DNA of 64,000 nt, taken from assembly GCF_009646095.1 (NCBI RefSeq), contig NZ_CP045725.1, forward strand, positions 1,922,001 to 1,986,000, written 5' to 3'. Every line of letters begins with the position of its first letter. The stretch's first letter is position 1. Positions 38,679 through 50,987 of this stretch are shown here, piece by piece. This stretch comes from Raineyella fluvialis (lineage in GTDB: Bacteria > Actinomycetota > Actinomycetes > Propionibacteriales > Propionibacteriaceae). The notes under the pieces are model-generated. The model saw nothing but the letters and a program-made list of their open reading frames with translations, was not told where the DNA came from and did not search any database. Position numbers and translations under genes: made by a program.

Positions 38679-38718
38679 ACGATCGGGCTCTCCGGCACGT
38701 GCCGGAGAGCCCGATCGT
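38679..38718. terminator. 40-bp perfect palindrome, probable bidirectional terminator
   Basis: Twenty bases on each side of 38698/38699 are exactly complementary (arm ACGATCGGGCTCTCCGGCAC). It separates the 3' ends of the convergent SHOCT gene and the RiPP operon. No U-tract. Confidence 0.75.
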
Positions 38719-38740: not shown

Positions 38741-38878
38741 TCACCCTGAGCCGGACCCGCTGCCGGTCTCTGTCCCGCACTTGCAGGAGCAGCCCGGATT
38801 GTTGCTGCGCAGGGTATTGGCGGCTGGGAGTTCCGGCTCCTCGAACCGCTTCGCTGGTGGTTGGTCATTCTTGGCCAT
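38741..38878 (-). CDS. RiPP precursor peptide, type A copy 2 (CxCxC core)
   Basis: A 45-residue peptide. The leader has MAKNDQPPAKRFEEPELPAA, then NTLRSNNP, the core GCSCKCG and a Thr/Gly/Ser tail (TETGSGSGSG). It is a paralogue of the peptide at 41192-41326: both share FEEPELP, LRS and PGCSCKCG. A strong site AAGGAGAGGCTGAC precedes the ATG at 38878, so it is clearly translated. It is last in the operon. No named RiPP family was recognised; the three alternating Cys are probable crosslink sites for the radical SAM enzyme. Confidence 0.8.
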   Translation of the reverse strand: MAKNDQPPAKRFEEPELPAANTLRSNNPGCSCKCGTETGSGSGSG

Positions 38879-38910
38879 GTCAGCCTCTCCTTGGAACGAA
38901 ATGATGGAGG

Positions 38911-39132
38911 TCAGTAGCCCCCGATGCCGGTACCGAGGCCTGCGCTGGGGGAGGTGCAGGTGCACCAGCAGTCCTCTCGAGAGCGCAGGTCCGATTCGGG
39001 GAGGATCGGCGGCTCGAACTGCCGCGCGACCTTCACGTCGAGCGTGACGGGCTCGCCGTTGACGGTGACCTGTACGCGGATCGGGTCTGTGGGCCGATCG
39101 CTCGGGGAGTCACCGGGTGTCGATGTCGTCAT
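38911..39132 (-). CDS. RiPP precursor peptide, type B copy 2 (CxCxC core)
   Basis: A 73-residue peptide. A Pro/Ser/Asp N-terminus leads to PTDPIRVQVTVNG, a short insertion (GEPVTLDVKVA), then RQFEPPILPESDLRS, the core CWCTC and a Ser/Gly tail ending GLGTGIGGY. It is a paralogue of the peptide at 41414-41587, sharing DPIRV, DVKV, QFEPP, LRS/MRS and the three alternating Cys. ATG at 39132 has an AGGGGG site inside the last codons of the ferredoxin gene, so translation is probably coupled. Confidence 0.78.
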   Translation of the reverse strand: MTTSTPGDSPSDRPTDPIRVQVTVNGEPVTLDVKVARQFEPPILPESDLRSREDCWCTCTSPSAGLGTGIGGY

Positions 39133-39138
39133 GGGTCG

Positions 39139-39450
39139 TCACCCCCTCAGACCTGTGAGCTTGACACTCGGCGCCTCCAGCTTGTGCCAGAGATCGGTGT
39201 CCGTCGGGTCGCGGTCCGGGCGCAACCGGGTGTAGAGGGCGGACAGTTCCACGGTGCTGGTGGAGTCCAGCGTGATGGCTCCGGTCGGACAGACCACCAT
39301 GCACTGGCTTTCGCCGTGGAAGCCGAAGCATTCCGTGCAGGTGGCACTGTCGACCACCGGTCGCTCGGGGCCGGGGCGGATCGCCTGGGTGGGACATTCC
39401 CATTCGCAGGCCCCGCAGCGAATACAGGTCGTGCCGATGCTGGCGGCCAT
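39139..39450 (-). CDS. 4Fe-4S ferredoxin (Alvin type), likely electron donor to the radical SAM enzyme
   Basis: A 103-residue ferredoxin with two 4Fe-4S motifs. The first is CIRCGACEWECP. The second is CTECFGFHGESQCMVVCP, with eight residues between the second and third Cys as in Alvin-type ferredoxins. The C-terminal extension (LSALYTRLRPDRDP...) is helical. ATG at 39450 has GAAGGAG upstream. It lies between the PqqD-like gene and precursor B2 and would supply electrons for S-adenosylmethionine cleavage. Confidence 0.88.
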   Translation of the reverse strand: MAASIGTTCIRCGACEWECPTQAIRPGPERPVVDSATCTECFGFHGESQCMVVCPTGAITLDSTSTVELSALYTRLRPDRDPTDTDLWHKLEAPSVKLTGLRG

Positions 39451-39466
39451 GATTACTCCTTCTTCG

Positions 39467-39730
39467 TCAATCCGAGCGCGTCATCAACCCCGCCGCGACC
39501 AGCTTGGCCACGAACAGATCGCGATGATGGGCGAGATTGCTCGGCGGTTCGTCCGGATAGCTGCGGGACAGTTCCGCCAGGACTTCATCGTCGGACTTGT
39601 CGGCATACAGTTGATAGATTTCGGCACCGCTGCCGGCCAAGGTGTAAATGTCCCCCGACACCGGTTCGCAGACCACCAGGGAATCGTCGAGCCATTCATG
39701 GAACACCCCCGGGGAATGTTGATACCTCAT
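39467..39730 (-). CDS. PqqD-like RiPP recognition element protein
   Basis: An 87-residue standalone recognition protein of the PqqD fold: HEWLDDSLVVCEPVSGDIYT, LAGSGAEIYQLYADKSDDEV, LAELSRSYPDEPPSNL and a C-terminal helix FVAKLVAAGLMTRS. PqqD-like domains bind precursor leaders and present them to the modifying enzyme. Its ATG overlaps the radical SAM stop by 3 bases (ATGA), so the two are coupled. It is short, as expected. Confidence 0.85.
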   Translation of the reverse strand: MRYQHSPGVFHEWLDDSLVVCEPVSGDIYTLAGSGAEIYQLYADKSDDEVLAELSRSYPDEPPSNLAHHRDLFVAKLVAAGLMTRSD

Positions 39731-41211
39731 GGGTTGCTCCGCAGTGTCGGCATTCCGAGCATGACCGCCGGCGTGCTCGAGCCGTCGATGGAGGGATCGG
39801 CCCATTCGTTCCGCCGGGCCGCGGGCACCTCCCCGGTCGAACGCCAGGCCTTGACTTCGAACGTGCGGCGAAGGTAGCTGCAGAAGATGGGTGCCGCCTC
39901 GTCGTAGTGGCCGGTGAACGAGTAATGAATGCCCCGGCATCCGCCGCCGCAGCCACGTTGGATGATGCAGGTCCGGCAGGTCGGCAGGACGTCGGACGTC
40001 GAGGCCTGGGCCTTCTGCAGGATCGGGTCCGTGGCGTACAGGGTCGCGATGGAGGTGTCACGGATGTTGCCCGCCCGGAGTTCCGGGTACTGCAGGAGCT
40101 TGCAGGGATAGACCCAGCCCTCCGGATCGACCGACACCTCGCTCAGCCCGGCCCCGCAATGGTCCCGTACGTCTCCCTTGCCGGACGGCGTGGACTCCTC
40201 TTCGGTGGCTCCTGGCGTGCCGGGCCGGCTGGCGCCGGAGACCTGCGCCATCTGGTCACTCAGGCCCAGGAGCTGGTTGGCGCTCAGCTCGTCACCGCGG
40301 CTGGTGCCGCCACGGCCCATCGGGAACTGCGGCACGATCTTGTGCATCCCGATCCGCTTGGCCCGCCGCAACCCGACCAGTGCGGCCAGGTCCTCGATCC
40401 CGTGCCGGGAGAGCACGCTGTTGATGTCGACCGAGACGCCGGCCTCGAGCAGCAGGTCGATCGCCCGGATCGCCTTCTCCCAGGATCGATGGCCGCGAAT
40501 GCGGTCGTGGTGCTCCGGAATGAGGTGGTCGAGACTCACGGTGACCAGATCGAAGATCGATGCCACCCGGTCGATGTTGTGGACGTTGATGAACGCGCCG
40601 TTGGTGATGACATTGGTCCGCAGCCCTTTGGATTTGCTGTAGGCCGCGAGTTCCAGCAGGTCCCGACGGGAGAAGGGCTCACCACCGGTGAACACGAACG
40701 TCTGCGCGCCCGCCGCGTGGGCCTGGTCGATGACCGCCTTCCCCTCGTCGGTCGACAGTTCCTCGGCACGTGGTCGGGCAGCGTCCTGATAGCAGTAGGT
40801 GCAGCGCAGATTGCACTTCTGGGTGGTGATCCAGTAGACCGTCCCGAGCGGTGCGTCAGGGTGGACCACGGGCTGCAGTGCCGGCTCGTGGTCGAGATAC
40901 AGCAGGCGGCGCAGCACGAGTTTCTCCGCCGTCCTGATCAGGGGTTCGCCGGTTTCACCCAGAGGGGTGTGGCGCGCCACGTAGTCGCGTAGGCCCTGCC
41001 GGTCACGGCCGGCGCGGAGCCATCGCAACATCGCCGCTGCCGCGGGATCGATCCGGTGCCATACGTTGAAAGCTGGGTTGTACCCCAGGACGTTGTCCCC
41101 TCGGCAGATCAGTGACAGTCGGGCGGGGACGAGCAGCCGCTCCAGAAACTGCTCGTCCCCGACCTCGGCCGTAGCCACTGCGGGGGGCAGGTCAACCCTT
41201 GCCGCCGCCAC
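39727..41211 (-). CDS. Radical SAM/SPASM peptide-modifying enzyme
   Basis: About 494 residues. The N-terminal 95 residues resemble a second PqqD-type fold (RGDNVLGYNPAFNVWHRID). The radical SAM domain has the cluster motif CNLRCTYCYQ at about 133-140 and glycine loop VFTGGEPFSRRD. The C-terminal SPASM domain binds auxiliary clusters, with Cys in HCGAGLSEVSVDPEGWVYPC, CRTCIIQRGCGGGC and FCSYLRR. Family members install thioether or other carbon crosslinks in peptides. GTG at 41211 is chosen because GGAGAGG lies 9 bases upstream; it overlaps the end of precursor A1 by 20 bases. Confidence 0.9.
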   Translation of the reverse strand: MAAARVDLPPAVATAEVGDEQFLERLLVPARLSLICRGDNVLGYNPAFNVWHRIDPAAAAMLRWLRAGRDRQGLRDYVARHTPLGETGEPLIRTAEKLVLRRLLYLDHEPALQPVVHPDAPLGTVYWITTQKCNLRCTYCYQDAARPRAEELSTDEGKAVIDQAHAAGAQTFVFTGGEPFSRRDLLELAAYSKSKGLRTNVITNGAFINVHNIDRVASIFDLVTVSLDHLIPEHHDRIRGHRSWEKAIRAIDLLLEAGVSVDINSVLSRHGIEDLAALVGLRRAKRIGMHKIVPQFPMGRGGTSRGDELSANQLLGLSDQMAQVSGASRPGTPGATEEESTPSGKGDVRDHCGAGLSEVSVDPEGWVYPCKLLQYPELRAGNIRDTSIATLYATDPILQKAQASTSDVLPTCRTCIIQRGCGGGCRGIHYSFTGHYDEAAPIFCSYLRRTFEVKAWRSTGEVPAARRNEWADPSIDGSSTPAVMLGMPTLRSNP

Positions 41212-41326
41212 TTCCGGTTTCCTCTCCACACTTGCACGAGCAGCCCGGATCACTCCGAAGCGCGTTGGGATCCGGCAGTTCCGGTTCCTCGAACTGCTTC
41301 GAAGGTGGAGTGTTCTTCTCGGCCAC
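41192..41326 (-). CDS. RiPP precursor peptide, type A copy 1 (CxCxC core)
   Basis: A 44-residue peptide: MAEKNTPPSKQFEEPELPDP leader, NALRSDPGCSCKCG, and a Gly/Ser tail. The GTG start at 41326 has an AAAAGGAGGAACA site, the strongest in the operon. It shares FEEPELP, LRS and PGCSCKCG with the copy at 38741. Its last 20 bases overlap the start of the radical SAM gene, so precursor and enzyme are translated together. Confidence 0.82.
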   Translation of the reverse strand: MAEKNTPPSKQFEEPELPDPNALRSDPGCSCKCGEETGSGGGKG

Positions 41327-41413
41327 TGTTCCTCCTTTTCGTACGTGACCGGCGGGATTCTCCGGTCGCTGTGACTCAGTTCGCCGAGGTGTCTTTCTCG
41401 GCGACACCGGGAA

Positions 41414-41587
41414 CTAGCCGCCGGAGCCGCCGCCGGCCTTGCTTCCGCAATCGCACAGGCAAATGTCGGATCGCATGAGATTCGGCTCGTTCAGAGTCGG
41501 TGGCTCGAACTGCTGGCGGGTCACTTTGACGTCGACGCGGATCGGGTCATTCTGCGGATCCGTCGGCGTCTTGCTGGGTTCCGTCAC
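41414..41587 (-). CDS. RiPP precursor peptide, type B copy 1 (CxCxC core)
   Basis: A 57-residue peptide: MTEPSKTPTDPQNDPIRVDV, VKVTRQQFEPPTLNEPNL, MRS, the core CLCDCG, and the tail SKAGGGSGG. The shared leader motif with type A is Q-F-E-x-P. GTG at 41587 has an AGGAGAGG site about 13 bases upstream, a longer gap than usual; a frame extending to 41695 would lie over the promoter, so I reject it. It is first in the operon. Confidence 0.75.
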   Translation of the reverse strand: MTEPSKTPTDPQNDPIRVDVKVTRQQFEPPTLNEPNLMRSDICLCDCGSKAGGGSGG

Positions 41588-41632
41588 GAGGTATTCACTT
41601 CCTCTCCTTGTGAGGTCGATCACATGCCCACG

Positions 41633-41662
41633 ATTAAAGGGGGCCGGATGGGCGGCTGTCAA
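41633..41662 (-). promoter_or_regulatory. Near-consensus promoter of the RiPP operon
   Basis: On the minus strand TTGACA (complement of 41657-41662) and TTTAAT (41633-41638) are separated by 18 bases. It lies 46 bases before the first precursor gene. Such a sequence is unusually good for a GC-rich genome. Confidence 0.65.
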
Positions 41663-41688
41663 CCAGTTCCGGCTGCCATTGATAAGGG

Positions 41689-41739
41689 GGATCAAAAGTC
41701 GATGAATTCCTGTGGATCAAAAGTCGATACTTTCCTGTG
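41689..41739. repeat. Two tandem 25-bp direct repeats upstream of the RiPP promoter
   Basis: GGATCAAAAGTCGAT, 3-4 variable bases, TTCCTGTG occurs at 41689-41713 and 41714-41739. The block starts 27 bases upstream of the -35 element, a position typical of activator sites. Confidence 0.75.
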
Positions 41740-41964
41740 GGCCTTCCGCCGACCGTCTGCCCGTGCTCACCCCTCGAGGCGAGGGCGGCCGCACGACGTC
41801 AAGCACCTCGCATCCCGTGCGGCTGGCACTGTCGCTGTCTGCGACGCTCAGGTCGGGACGGTGCGTGAGATCGTCACAGGAACAGGTCCTGCGTCCGAGC
41901 GGTGCGCTGAGGCAGCAGGAGCGATGGTCGCGATATCGGCGCGGGTTCTGGATAGCCTGTGGCC

Positions 41965-44958: not shown

Positions 44959-45687
44959 GTCGGGGTCGCCCGGGATTATGCGGCGTTGATGGGGTTCGAC
45001 GGGTCGGACGGTAAGGCGGCGTGTCGGTGGGCGGCGTTTCATCATGGCCTGTCGTCGGGCGACAACGATCACATTCACATCGTGGTCGGGTTGGTGCGTG
45101 AGGACGGTACGTGGGCGTCGAATTTCCGCTCGGTGCAGCGGTCGCAGGACGCGCGTCGGGCGTTGGAGAAGGCGTACGGGTTCGCGCCGGTGGGGGTGGT
45201 GGCGGCGCAGCGGGATTTCCAGGCGTATTCGATGGTCGATGTGCAGCGGGCGGCCACGGTCGGCCAGGACGGGTCGCGGGTGGTGGGCGAGACCGATGTG
45301 GAGGCGTTGCGTCGGTTGATGTTGGGCGCGGCGACGCAGGCGACCTCGGAGGCGGGGTATGTGCGGGCGTTGTGGCGGGCGGGGGTGTTGTCCCGGCCCC
45401 GTTACGCGGCCGGGACCACGGATGTGGTGGTGGGGTATTCGGTGGCGCTGCGGCCGCAGGGCGACCAGGCGCCGTTCTGGTATGCGGCGGGCAAGGTCCA
45501 CAAGAGTCTGACGTTGCCGAACGTGCGGTCGCGGTATGTCGATTCGCCGGAGGCGGCGGTGGAGGCGGCAGCGACGTGGGCCACGTATAACGGGGTCACG
45601 CCGGCCCCGACTCGCATGTCCGTGACTCACGGAATCCAGGGCCTCAATCGCCGCTGGTCCACTGAGTTACCGGCTTTATTGGATTAA
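44959..45687 (+). pseudogene. Relaxase (mobilisation nuclease) remnant, 5' truncated
   Basis: The frame is open from 44950 with no start codon that fits the family. It begins RDYAALMGFDGSDGKAACRW and has the His-triad motif III NDHIHIVVGLVREDG followed by SVQRSQDARRALEKAYGF, all relaxase hallmarks. The catalytic-Tyr N-terminal part is missing. It touches the MFS stop and its 3' end overlaps a convergent gene by 44 bases. This marks an insertion or deletion boundary of a mobile element. Confidence 0.75.
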
Positions 45688-47945: not shown

Positions 47946-50900
47946 TCAGTAGTGTTCCGCGATGTAGTCGTAGGCGCGTTCGAAGAGTCCGTTGACGGTG
48001 TGGAGTTCGTATTTGCGTAGGACGACGCGGACGCCGCGGCGGACGGCGCGGTCGGCTTTCTGGGCGTTGAGCCAGTCGCGGTCGCCGGCGGTGATCTGGC
48101 TGACCAGGGCGTCGATGTCGGTCACGACCCGTTCGATCATGGTCGGGGTCTCGGGTGGGGCATACTCGCGGAAGATCTGGGTGAGGGCACCGATGTTCGG
48201 GTTGGGGAGCAGGTCCAGGCCGGTACGGCCCTGCTCGTCCTCGGCCTTCTCGGCGGCGGTGAGGTCTTTGGCGACGGTGAACAGTTCACGCAGCCATTCG
48301 ATCGAGTTCTCCGCGGCGGTCAGGGTCCGTTCCCGCAGGCTGTCGAGGCGTTCGGCCAGGGACCGGTAGATGACGTGGTCGCCGTTGGGCCCGGCGATCC
48401 GCTTCTTGAGGCGGTTCGCGATGGTGTCGATGACCTCATCGGCGCTCTTGTGCTCCACGTCGGTGATGTCGGGCAGCAGGCCCTCCTCGGACAGGCGGCG
48501 GATGGTGTCGGCGTCGGCGATGACCACGGTGGGGTGGTCGGCGTCGATCGTGACCTCGCCCATGTGGGCGTGGACCAGCTCGAGGGTTTTCGCGCCGACC
48601 CGGGTCCAGACCACGTCGTCGTTGACGGTTGAGGGCTGCAGGGAGGCGTAGACCTTGGCGAGGAACCGGTAGGGGTCCTTGTGCGCCAGCAGGCGGGGGT
48701 GGGGGGCGACGGCCTCCCAGATGCCTTCCAGCATGTTGAACTCGGCAGCGAAGTCGTCCAGGTCTTCGGCGGGGACGCGTTGCTGGGCATCGATGAGGGT
48801 GGTCGCGCCGACGTGGGTGATGTCGAGGCCGGCGAAGCGGCGCATCGCCAGCTTCAGCCCGCCCTCGAAGGCGTCGATCAGCCCGTCGATGTCGATGCTG
48901 CGCTGTTCCTGGTCCGGGTTCGCGGGGGCCATCGCGCGGGCGAACCCATCGCCCAGGCCGACGTAGTCCACGACCAGGCCGTAGCGCTTCTCCTGGCCTG
49001 TCTGGGGGTTCTTCCAGGTCCGGTTGGTGCGGGTGATGGTCTGGAACAGGGTGTGCTTCTTCAGTGGCTTGTCCAGGTACATGACGCCCTCGATGGGGGC
49101 GTTGAAGCCGGTGCCCAGCTTGGCGGTGACGATCAGGAACTTCAGCGGGTCCCCGAAGGTCCGGAACCGCTTCAGCAGGTCCTCCTCCTGGGACTCGGTC
49201 AGCCCGTAGTCGTCCCAGTCCTTGTCGTCGTCCTTGCCCCCGACCCGGGTCATGTCGACCGCGGCCTCATCCAGCGCCTCCCCGGCGGTGTAGCGGGCCT
49301 GGAGGAGGCGGGTGAGTTCGCGGTGGTAGTCCACGCACGCTGCCCGGTCGTAGACGACGATCTGGGCCTTCATGCCCAGCGGGTCGACGGTGGAGTAGAA
49401 GTGCTCCACGATGTCGGCACACACCGCCTCGATGCGGGCCGGGTTGGAGAAGAACGTGCCGACCCGCGAGGCGCGCCGGCTGACGATGTCGGCTTCCTCC
49501 TCGGACAGGTTCTCCTCGGCGGCAAGCTCCTGGAACGCCTCGTCGAGCTTGTCCTTGTCGAGTTGGAAGCGCACCAGGCGGGGGGAGACGTGGATCGGGA
49601 CGACGACGCCGTCGGCGATCGCCTGGTCGGAGGTGTAGGTGTGCAGGGCCTTGCCCGGGTCGTCGGGGTCGCCGAACGTGGCGAAGGTGTTGCGGTCCAG
49701 TTCGGCCAGCGGGGTGCCGGAGAACGCGAAGAACAGCGTGTTGGGCAGCGCGGCGCGCATCGTCAGGCCCAGCCCGCCTTCCTGGGTGCGGTGGGCCTCA
49801 TCGACCAACACGACGATGTTGCGCCGGGTGTTCAGGTCGGCGGGGGCGCCGGCGAACTTGTGGACGGTGGAGAAGATCAGGCCCCGCTGGTCGGTGCCGC
49901 CGTGCTCCTTGTCGCCCAGCCTTGAGCGCAGATCGGTCGCGGTCGCCGGGGTCAGGAGGCGCGGCATGCCGGTGGTGCGGAACTGGTCCCACATCTGGTT
50001 GACCAGCTGCACCCGGTCGGCGATCAGCACGATCGTCGGATTCTCCAGCACCGGGTCGCGGAGGATCTTCGCGGCGGCGAACACCATCGCCAGCGTCTTG
50101 CCTGTGCCCTGAGTGTGGTAGATCAGGCCGCGGCGCTTGAGGCCGTCGTGGGCACGGGCGGCCATCAGCTGGACCGCGTCGTACTGCATGTAGCGGGCGA
50201 TCAGCTTCTTCAACCCGCCACCCAGGTTGTCCTGCGGCTCCTCATACAGCGTGAAGTCATCCAGCAACGACAACACCGTGGCCGGCGCCAGCAGGCTGGA
50301 GACCGACTCCAGGACGTCGGCGAGCTTCGGGCCGGTGCGGGCCGGCCCCCACAGCTCCCAGAAGTCCAGCGGCGCCCCGGTCGCGCCGTAGGCGAGCTCC
50401 TTGCCCTCGGTGGCCGCGTTGAACACGTTCGGGACGAAGAACGCCGGCCATCCGGGCTGGTAGTGGTCGGCGACCTCACGGGCGCCCTTGAGCCAGGAGA
50501 TCTTGCGGTCCACGGCGGTCTTGCACTCGATCACGACCAGCGGGATCCCGTTGACGTACAGCACGATGTCGAAGCGCGCCTTGCGCCCGACCGTTCCGTA
50601 GGTGACCTCATCGGCCACGACCAGCCGGTTGTTGCCCGGATGCTCCAGGTCGATCAGCCGGACCGGGACGTGGCGGGGCAGGCCAGCGAACTTGTGCGTC
50701 CGCAGCCCCCGCAACCACTGCGCCATCGCCCGGTTCGTCTCGACCAGCCCGTCGTCCTCGACCGCCAACGTCAGGGCCCGCAGCTCCTTCATGACCTCAC
50801 CCGCCCGGCCCGGCTCCTGATCGATCAGCGGGTTCAGCCGTTCCAGCCCGGCCACGAGATCAGCCTCGAGGAACACCTGCTCGATCTCCCGGCCCAGCCG

Positions 50901-50987
50901 GTCGCCTGGGACGTGGGTCCAGCCAAGCTCGACCAGCCGGTCCACGATCGGCTGCTGCACCGAGTTCCGTTCGTCCAGGCCGGCCAT
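47946..50987 (-). CDS. hsdR: Type I restriction enzyme, R subunit
   Basis: A 1013-residue motor/nuclease subunit. The N-terminal nuclease has FDIVLYVNGIPLVVIECKTA (PD-ExK). The SF2 helicase has Walker A HTQGTGKTLAM, DEAH-box VLVDEAHRTQ and motif III FAFSGTPL. It translocates DNA and cuts far from unmethylated sites. ATG at 50987 starts one base after the Mrr-like stop; the operon order is hsdM, hsdS, mrr-like, hsdR. Confidence 0.96.
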   Translation of the reverse strand: MAGLDERNSVQQPIVDRLVELGWTHVPGDRLGREIEQVFLEADLVAGLERLNPLIDQEPGRAGEVMKELRALTLAVEDDGLVETNRAMAQWLRGLRTHKFAGLPRHVPVRLIDLEHPGNNRLVVADEVTYGTVGRKARFDIVLYVNGIPLVVIECKTAVDRKISWLKGAREVADHYQPGWPAFFVPNVFNAATEGKELAYGATGAPLDFWELWGPARTGPKLADVLESVSSLLAPATVLSLLDDFTLYEEPQDNLGGGLKKLIARYMQYDAVQLMAARAHDGLKRRGLIYHTQGTGKTLAMVFAAAKILRDPVLENPTIVLIADRVQLVNQMWDQFRTTGMPRLLTPATATDLRSRLGDKEHGGTDQRGLIFSTVHKFAGAPADLNTRRNIVVLVDEAHRTQEGGLGLTMRAALPNTLFFAFSGTPLAELDRNTFATFGDPDDPGKALHTYTSDQAIADGVVVPIHVSPRLVRFQLDKDKLDEAFQELAAEENLSEEEADIVSRRASRVGTFFSNPARIEAVCADIVEHFYSTVDPLGMKAQIVVYDRAACVDYHRELTRLLQARYTAGEALDEAAVDMTRVGGKDDDKDWDDYGLTESQEEDLLKRFRTFGDPLKFLIVTAKLGTGFNAPIEGVMYLDKPLKKHTLFQTITRTNRTWKNPQTGQEKRYGLVVDYVGLGDGFARAMAPANPDQEQRSIDIDGLIDAFEGGLKLAMRRFAGLDITHVGATTLIDAQQRVPAEDLDDFAAEFNMLEGIWEAVAPHPRLLAHKDPYRFLAKVYASLQPSTVNDDVVWTRVGAKTLELVHAHMGEVTIDADHPTVVIADADTIRRLSEEGLLPDITDVEHKSADEVIDTIANRLKKRIAGPNGDHVIYRSLAERLDSLRERTLTAAENSIEWLRELFTVAKDLTAAEKAEDEQGRTGLDLLPNPNIGALTQIFREYAPPETPTMIERVVTDIDALVSQITAGDRDWLNAQKADRAVRRGVRVVLRKYELHTVNGLFERAYDYIAEHY

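Follow-up and report, generated by a model that had tools for sequence, protein, structure and literature searches.

The stretch of DNA analyzed here, a window of 64,000 nucleotides from the Raineyella fluvialis genome (contig NZ_CP045725.1, positions 1,922,001 to 1,986,000), contains a minus-strand unit of seven genes (38741-41587) that encode, in order, precursor peptides A1 and A2, a radical S-adenosylmethionine (SAM) enzyme with a SPASM domain, a PqqD-like protein, a ferredoxin, and precursors A3 and A4 (Table 1). The unit is real, conserved, and rare. It is probably an operon for ribosomally synthesized and post-translationally modified peptides (RiPPs) of the sactipeptide type, sister to the StsABC system, to which it would add a separate, ferredoxin-bearing branch that apparently reaches into the Nitrospirota.

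The seven-gene unit and its relatives

Three close homologs of the radical SAM enzyme, with identities of 50-54%, were found in a scan of a genome collection (84,980 species by its own description). They belong to Nonomuraea solani, Streptosporangiaceae bacterium NEAU-GS5, and a Nitrospira metagenome-assembled genome (MAG). One distant enzyme (L012, 25% identical over a part) was also recovered; the scan is not exhaustive, as exact 8-residue words were required. In each of the three relatives, the radical SAM gene is immediately preceded by one or two CxCxC peptides and immediately followed by genes for a PqqD-like protein and a ferredoxin, arranged as in the window. The arrangement precursor(s)-radical SAM-PqqD-ferredoxin is thus found in all four loci, and spans two phyla if the Nitrospira MAG was binned rightly, which is uncertain because its locus lies near a contig end. 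A first-pass annotation of this DNA had described a RiPP operon with four CxCxC peptides, a SPASM enzyme, a PqqD-type recognition protein, and an Alvin-type ferredoxin. All seven genes are indeed present, gene order and peptide type are kept in other genera, and the three protein assignments are backed by family models, gene order, and relatives.

Frames with CxCxC in their last 32 residues number six in the window, four of them being A1-A4, compared with zero to two CxCxC-ending frames per run in 30 third-order Markov simulations. A tail more than half Gly/Ser is found in three frames of the window and in none of the simulations (A3 fails this rule, its tail being exactly half Gly/Ser). Judged by eye, Shine-Dalgarno-like stretches are clear 5' of A2 (AAAAGGAGG) and A4 (AAGGAG), and weaker at A1 and A3. 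Gene starts were chosen by the analyst: the longest open reading frame of the radical SAM gene would begin at 41253, while its likely start overlaps the end of A2. Its stop overlaps the start of the PqqD-like gene.

The precursors are of two types. The short peptides A2 and A4 are 70% identical, and in the long peptides A1 and A3 the sequence DPIRVxVxV precedes the FEPP motif. At the DNA level, A2 and A4 are 73-74% identical in two aligned blocks that lie 2448 and 2451 nt apart, and A1 and A3 share a repeat (72% over 36 nt) at a distance of 2491 nt. These spacings suggest that duplication placed a second long-short precursor pair on the far side of the enzyme genes. A3-A4 is read as the added pair because the precursors of the three relatives were found upstream only.

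Table 1. Coordinates of the operon genes and adjoining elements in the window
Feature	Position	Strand	Remarks
Precursor A1, long type, 57 aa	41414..41587	-	GTG start; leader DPIRVDVKV...RQQFEPPTL; core CLCDCGSKAGGGSGG
Precursor A2, short type, 44 aa	41192..41326	-	GTG start; leader QFEEPEL; core CSCKCGEETGSGGGKG
Radical SAM/SPASM peptide maturase, 494 aa	39727..41211	-	GTG start; CNLRCTYC motif; PF04055, PF13186
PqqD-like discrete RiPP recognition element protein (StsC-like), 87 aa	39467..39730	-	PF05402
2[4Fe-4S] Alvin/YfhL-like ferredoxin	39139..39450	-	YfhL model match, 8 ligand Cys
Precursor A3, long type, 73 aa	38911..39132	-	leader DPIRVQVTVNGEPVTLDVKVARQFEPPIL; core CWCTCTSPSAGLGTGIGGY
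Precursor A4, short type, 45 aa	38741..38878	-	leader RFEEPEL; core CSCKCGTETGSGSGSG
Likely promoter, TTGACA - 18 nt - TTTAAT	41633..41662	-	upstream of A1; by eye
Two tandem 25-nt repeats (GGATCAAAAGTCGAT...TCCTGT)	41689..41738	.	upstream of promoter
Perfect 20-nt inverted repeat	38679..38718	.	past A4; possible terminator, without T run

Placement of the enzyme, recognition protein, and ferredoxin

The radical SAM enzyme scores above the cut-offs of PF04055 and PF13186, which identifies it as a SPASM radical SAM peptide maturase. Its SPASM cysteines are arranged as C-x12-G-x4-C and C-x2-C-x5-C-x3-C...C, and these seven residues, together with the CxxxCxxC motif, are invariant in the four aligned homologs. 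The StsA/StsB/StsC system is represented in NCBIfam by models NF045558, NF045559, and NF045574, and StsB is named there as the sactipeptide maturase of StsA. StsB (NF045574) is the top NCBIfam model for the window enzyme, at 249.7 bits and 101 bits above the next model, and it also leads for the other clade members, the four together spanning 249.7-274.9 bits with StsB and 148.4-156.3 bits with the runner-up model. Scores of the three sister enzymes by themselves are 263.6-274.9 bits, and those of the four StsB-type enzymes checked 696-909 bits. A midpoint-rooted tree of 40 enzymes, including six outgroup enzymes, groups the four ferredoxin-bearing loci in one clade (support 99/99) and 30 StsB-type loci in a separate one (95/98). 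The window operon is best placed as a sister group of the StsABC system, not as a plain member, because its enzyme and peptides score below the family cut-offs; the StsA and StsB cut-offs of NCBIfam miss this branch. The nearest solved structures by sequence are PqqE, the CteB-like entry 5wgg, and SkfB (E 5e-18 to 4e-15), a set that does not single out one type of bond.

The PqqD-like protein matches PF05402 with 30.0 bits (cut-off 23.4), and its homologs, at the same place in all three relatives, score 42.2-51.1 bits. A discrete PqqD-type RiPP recognition element (RRE) is therefore encoded in all four loci of the ferredoxin-bearing clade; PF05402 is also above cut-off in both StsB-type loci tried (L005 and L047). 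As to a possible RRE in the enzyme's own N-terminal stretch, profile comparison of that stretch with the PqqD-like proteins yields an hhalign probability of 0.8 on a scale of 0-100, and the Pfam PqqD model gives E 0.073 in one of two segments tried.

The motif [WYF]xxP lies ahead of the first Cys in 38 of 39 distinct peptide frames from the window and 33 related loci, and the gap between motif and Cys is 11-16 residues in 37 of them, with 1.0 expected from shuffling. This count was confined to frames with GxG after the Cys, two chance frames of L020 having been excluded beforehand. The sole frame without the motif is a chance frame in L005, the real precursor of which carries WSRP. The short-gap case is the Nitrospira peptide, where a second motif, FIQP, sits 16 residues before the Cys. 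All four window peptides have FxxP and all four sister precursors Y/FxxP, the aromatic residue being kept and the Trp not. A 2025 paper (PMC12710340) gives W/Y/LxxP/L/I as the sequence that PqqD- and StsC-type RREs recognize, and reports that retention of StsA by StsC was lost after replacement of W(-15)/V(-14) or K(-13)/P(-12). The F-E-x-P leader, which had been thought unmatched at first pass, is a version of this recognition sequence. In the same way, the statement that core pattern and leader matched no nameable family survives in part: the family cut-offs are missed, but distant kinship to the StsA/StsB/StsC system is seen in the radical SAM enzyme, the PqqD-like protein, the leader motif, and the core.

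The ferredoxin matches the YfhL model with 71.2 bits, below its cut-off of 86, and its eight ligand Cys are invariant in all four loci. Its motif occurs in 4/4 loci of the window clade versus 0/30 StsB-type loci, nearly all of which are represented by stretches reaching approximately 1.3 kb past the radical SAM gene, so that a farther ferredoxin would be missed. None was found in a 13-kb StsB-type locus from S. cattleyicolor. The ferredoxin is proposed to be the dedicated electron donor of the radical SAM enzyme. Peptide-modifying radical SAM enzymes are usually assayed with artificial reductants; if this ferredoxin is the physiological reductant, it would address a general open point for these enzymes, and provide a portable part for making such peptides.

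Core register and predicted linkage

Counted from the first Cys, the consensus of the CxCxC cores is C1-x-C3-x-C5-x-x-x-[TASG]-G10-x-G12-x-G14. Of 12 distinct CxCxC cores, 11 have Gly at each of positions +5, +7, and +9 from the last Cys, where 1.15 are expected from within-tail shuffles and 0/20000 shuffles reached as high a count. The opposite phase (+4, +6, +8) is seen in none of the 12. Among CxC frames, 20 of 22 have Gly at +5 and +7, and the remaining two are the chance frames of L020. All 34 distinct loci examined have a CxC or CxCxC frame close to the radical SAM gene, a count that left out four loci with identical radical SAM segments, L012, L013-L018, and L048, and in which nine of the 50 frames listed were judged to be chance. 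The pattern used was Gly-free; one requiring Gly gave 29 of 36 loci, and the five misses that were checked proved to be filter artefacts. Unlike the other clade members, the Nitrospira precursor (L010 4677-4880) has four alternating Cys, ten consecutive Gly, two FxxP motifs, and a follower past the Gly run.

The positions of Cys 1, 3, and 5 and Gly 10, 12, and 14 suggest nested Cys-to-Gly alpha-carbon thioethers. A nested hairpin fits both kinds of core, as the cross-strand Cys-Gly pairs that it needs could be supplied by GxG where there are two Cys and by GxGxG where there are three. In the proposed mechanism, the PqqD-like RRE would bind the aromatic-xxP leader and present the precursor to the SPASM enzyme, the clusters of which would receive electrons from the co-encoded low-potential ferredoxin. 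The enzyme would then abstract hydrogen and join the sulfurs of the three alternating Cys to alpha-carbons in the Gly/Ser tail, with small residues as acceptors and the alternating Gly 10, 12, and 14 as the most probable ones. The product would be a nested hairpin with up to three rungs, lighter by 2 Da per rung, and its leader would be removed and the peptide exported by unlinked host proteins. The leader-binding step has experimental support in StsC; for the window it is inferred, like the steps that follow. The thioether product envisaged at first pass agrees with families, gene order, and relatives, and the bond itself is a prediction from them.

A linkage from Cys sulfur to alpha-carbon is considered likely, with about the same confidence as the operon assignment itself. 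The exact three-rung register (C5-G10, C3-G12, C1-G14) is put forward tentatively, at somewhat less than an even chance. Slightly more doubtful again is the wider proposal of a three-rung sactionine ladder, in which pair positions sum to 15 with one spacer per rung, with a two-rung form in CxC relatives and a co-inherited Alvin-type ferredoxin that would enable moves between phyla. The fixed Cys-Gly register, a prediction from sequence, offers a concrete and cheap test of ring topology.

The closest alternative is a ranthipeptide or other non-alpha thioether, in which the Cys sulfurs would be joined to beta or gamma carbons of non-Gly core residues (Ser, Thr, Lys, Glu). SPASM radical SAM enzymes with RREs yield both sactipeptides and ranthipeptides, and the window enzyme weakly matches PapB, a ranthipeptide maturase (NF047865; 73.4 bits, cut-off 340). 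Given that StsB outscores every other family by about 100 bits and that the conserved positions after the Cys are Gly, which lacks a beta carbon, a non-alpha linkage is unlikely.

Several observations weigh against a sactipeptide operon with the linkage described above. The case is built on sequence. The radical SAM enzyme misses the NF045574 cut-off by a wide margin (249.7 vs. 625 bits). Searched against described families, A2 and A4 match NF045558 below its cut-off of 42 bits (E 0.0023, 17.8 bits, and E 0.019, 14.9 bits, respectively), A1 and A3 do not match it, and none of the four peptides reaches the NF045559 cut-off of 75 bits. The NF045558 cut-off is itself a weak test, since, of four CxCxC peptides beside StsB-type enzymes, those of L019 (45.2) and L020 (42.4) pass, and those of L021 (27.6) and L047 (23.2) fail. 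The branch joining the ferredoxin-bearing and StsB-type clades has support of 88/73, and the sister relation rests on few outgroups. A structure model of the enzyme, computed from a four-row alignment, has a mean pLDDT (predicted local distance difference test) of 42.4 and is too poor for use. In StsA, K(-18)/P(-17), which lie outside WxxP, were unexpectedly also needed for binding (PMC12710340). As to the register, A3 has its Gly one residue later (+6, +8, +10), and the Nitrospira core, which is all Gly and cannot test it, was left out. Of the 20 two-Cys cores, 13 have the third Gly as well, so that the numbers of Gly and Cys match only partly, and the shuffle test overstates independence because the tails are related. 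The alternating Gly could serve flexibility rather than linkage.

By default for its class, the sactipeptide-type product may be an antimicrobial that acts locally or a signalling peptide. Among the four loci, no shared gene for immunity or export was seen, and candidates occur at single loci. A pentapeptide-repeat protein, possibly an immunity protein, is encoded just upstream of the NEAU-GS5 precursor (L011 3804-4589). A C39-family peptidase gene (PF03412, 78.1 bits), a candidate for the leader peptidase, lies approximately 3.3 kb upstream of the Nitrospira precursor on the same strand (L010 698-1390), and an X-Pro dipeptidyl-peptidase-like gene lies downstream of the Nonomuraea operon on the opposite strand.

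Distribution, surroundings, and comparison with known systems

The clade was found in one of 396 sampled genomes of the phylum of the window (four-member profile, E 1e-100), one of 198 genomes of the phylum of the Nitrospira MAG (four-member profile, E 1e-50), and one of 57 near relatives (window protein, E 1e-30), each time the source genome itself. A sample of 298 genomes around Nonomuraea gave 32 matches at E 1e-50, two of them in the window clade; 29 of the other 30 were examined (one matching genome, G708, was left out), and all fall in the StsB clade. Two additional genome samples came from the pool already drawn and contributed a single new locus (L065). On viral contigs, 16 loci (L049-L064) encode distant, partial relatives of the enzyme (27-35% over parts).

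The operon genes have no match in the stretches examined from three congeners. In two of these the flanking SHOCT-domain and HerA genes are adjacent, with approximately 160 and 200 nt between matches, and in the stretch from the third the two-component system is seen, with neither the SHOCT nor the HerA gene. The operon was either gained in the window genome or lost in the congeners, and gain by transfer is likelier because of its patchy spread. Composition gives no clear sign of transfer (GC content 65.4% in the operon, 70.8% to the left, 64.7% to the right). The region to the right is island-like, and contains a relaxase-like fragment (44986-45687; PF03432, 23.6 bits, just below the cut-off of 24.6) and the HsdR subunit of a type I restriction system (47946-50987).

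A promoter scan, which requires A as the second base of the second hexamer, found no promoter at the site listed upstream of A1 in Table 1. The core of the tandem repeats has two exact matches in the window (0.04 expected), both at this site, and just short, chance-level matches in a plasmid collection. The repeats are possibly a regulator site or the trace of a mobile element. A similar repeated GATCnAGCAAGAAGTCCAC is found in the empty site of congener L069. The inverted repeat past A4 is not listed by a terminator scan.

The surroundings bear on a second alternative, that the CxCxC peptides bind copper, zinc, mercury, or another thiophile, with the enzyme modifying non-Cys residues, or with the thioethers themselves binding the metal. 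The three Cys are closely spaced, and a MerR-family regulator with a near-terminal CRSGNC is encoded approximately 1.8 kb upstream of the NEAU-GS5 precursor (L011 2508-2879). MerR proteins with such terminal cysteines are often metal sensors, as this one may be. The MerR gene is not seen beside the other three operons in the stretches examined, and no metal transporter or chaperone domain was found in the 16 flanking genes scanned, a subset of the flanks. The two-component system that adjoins the operon in the window does not belong to it, as this system occupies the same place in congeners that lack the operon. Metal binding as the purpose of the peptides is hence quite improbable. Least probable of all is a peptide-derived cofactor like pyrroloquinoline quinone or mycofactocin, one short modified fragment serving a redox enzyme: a PqqD-like protein, SPASM enzyme, and ferredoxin are present, and the enzyme scores 137.6 bits to the mycofactocin maturase (TIGR03962, cut-off 265), but the duplicated arrangement of the four precursors, two long and two short, the Cys-rich core, the lack of a dehydrogenase in the operon, and the rare, patchy distribution speak against it.

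Searches of the open PMC literature found no paper that links CxCxC to radical SAM enzymes and to RiPPs or their precursors, and nothing under the NCBIfam names or for an S. sparsogenes sactipeptide; absence of the clade from print is not claimed. Sactionines were reportedly shown for StsB by Precord in 2023, in work said to list additional new groups of sactipeptides, and the window clade could be among these.

Characterized sactipeptides outside the StsABC system offer further parallels. Streptosactin (GggA/GggB, Streptococcus) shares Gly/Ser acceptors and a radical SAM sactisynthase, but is quorum-regulated and has two unnested rings, Cys25-Ser28 and Cys31-Gly34 (PMC8172795). Suisactin (QMP family, Streptococcus suis) is comparable in having two sactionine bridges in a short core, and differs in that its rings have a single intervening residue (PMC13361665). 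Closer are the CxC StsA-related sactipeptides of Streptomyces-type genomes (NF045559; leader domain NF045560), which have the WxxP leader, Gly at +5 and +7, an StsB-type radical SAM enzyme, and a PqqD-like protein; those of L005 and L023 score 138.3 and 142.6 bits to NF045559 (cut-off 75). They differ in having two Cys, a longer leader with NF045560, and a core that is mostly CxCGxWSG(S/A)G.

The StsABC system of Streptomyces is closest to the window operon, with a SPASM radical SAM enzyme and a discrete PqqD-type RRE (StsC is UniProt A0A1R1S990 in PMC12710340). Both have an aromatic-xxP leader and a CxCxC core followed by a Gly/Ala/Ser tail, with the same Gly register in L019, L020, L021, and L047. 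The last of these is an StsB-type operon on the S. cattleyicolor plasmid pSCAT (L047 5540-9524; core CSCGCGSGGGGGAGS) that includes a PqqD-like protein. By eye, it also has an apparent two-gene ATP-binding cassette transporter; the plasmid collection lists no gene in this stretch of pSCAT. In contrast to StsABC, the leaders of the window clade have F/Y in place of W, the clade has a ferredoxin proposed to be dedicated, and the window itself has duplicated long-short precursor pairs.

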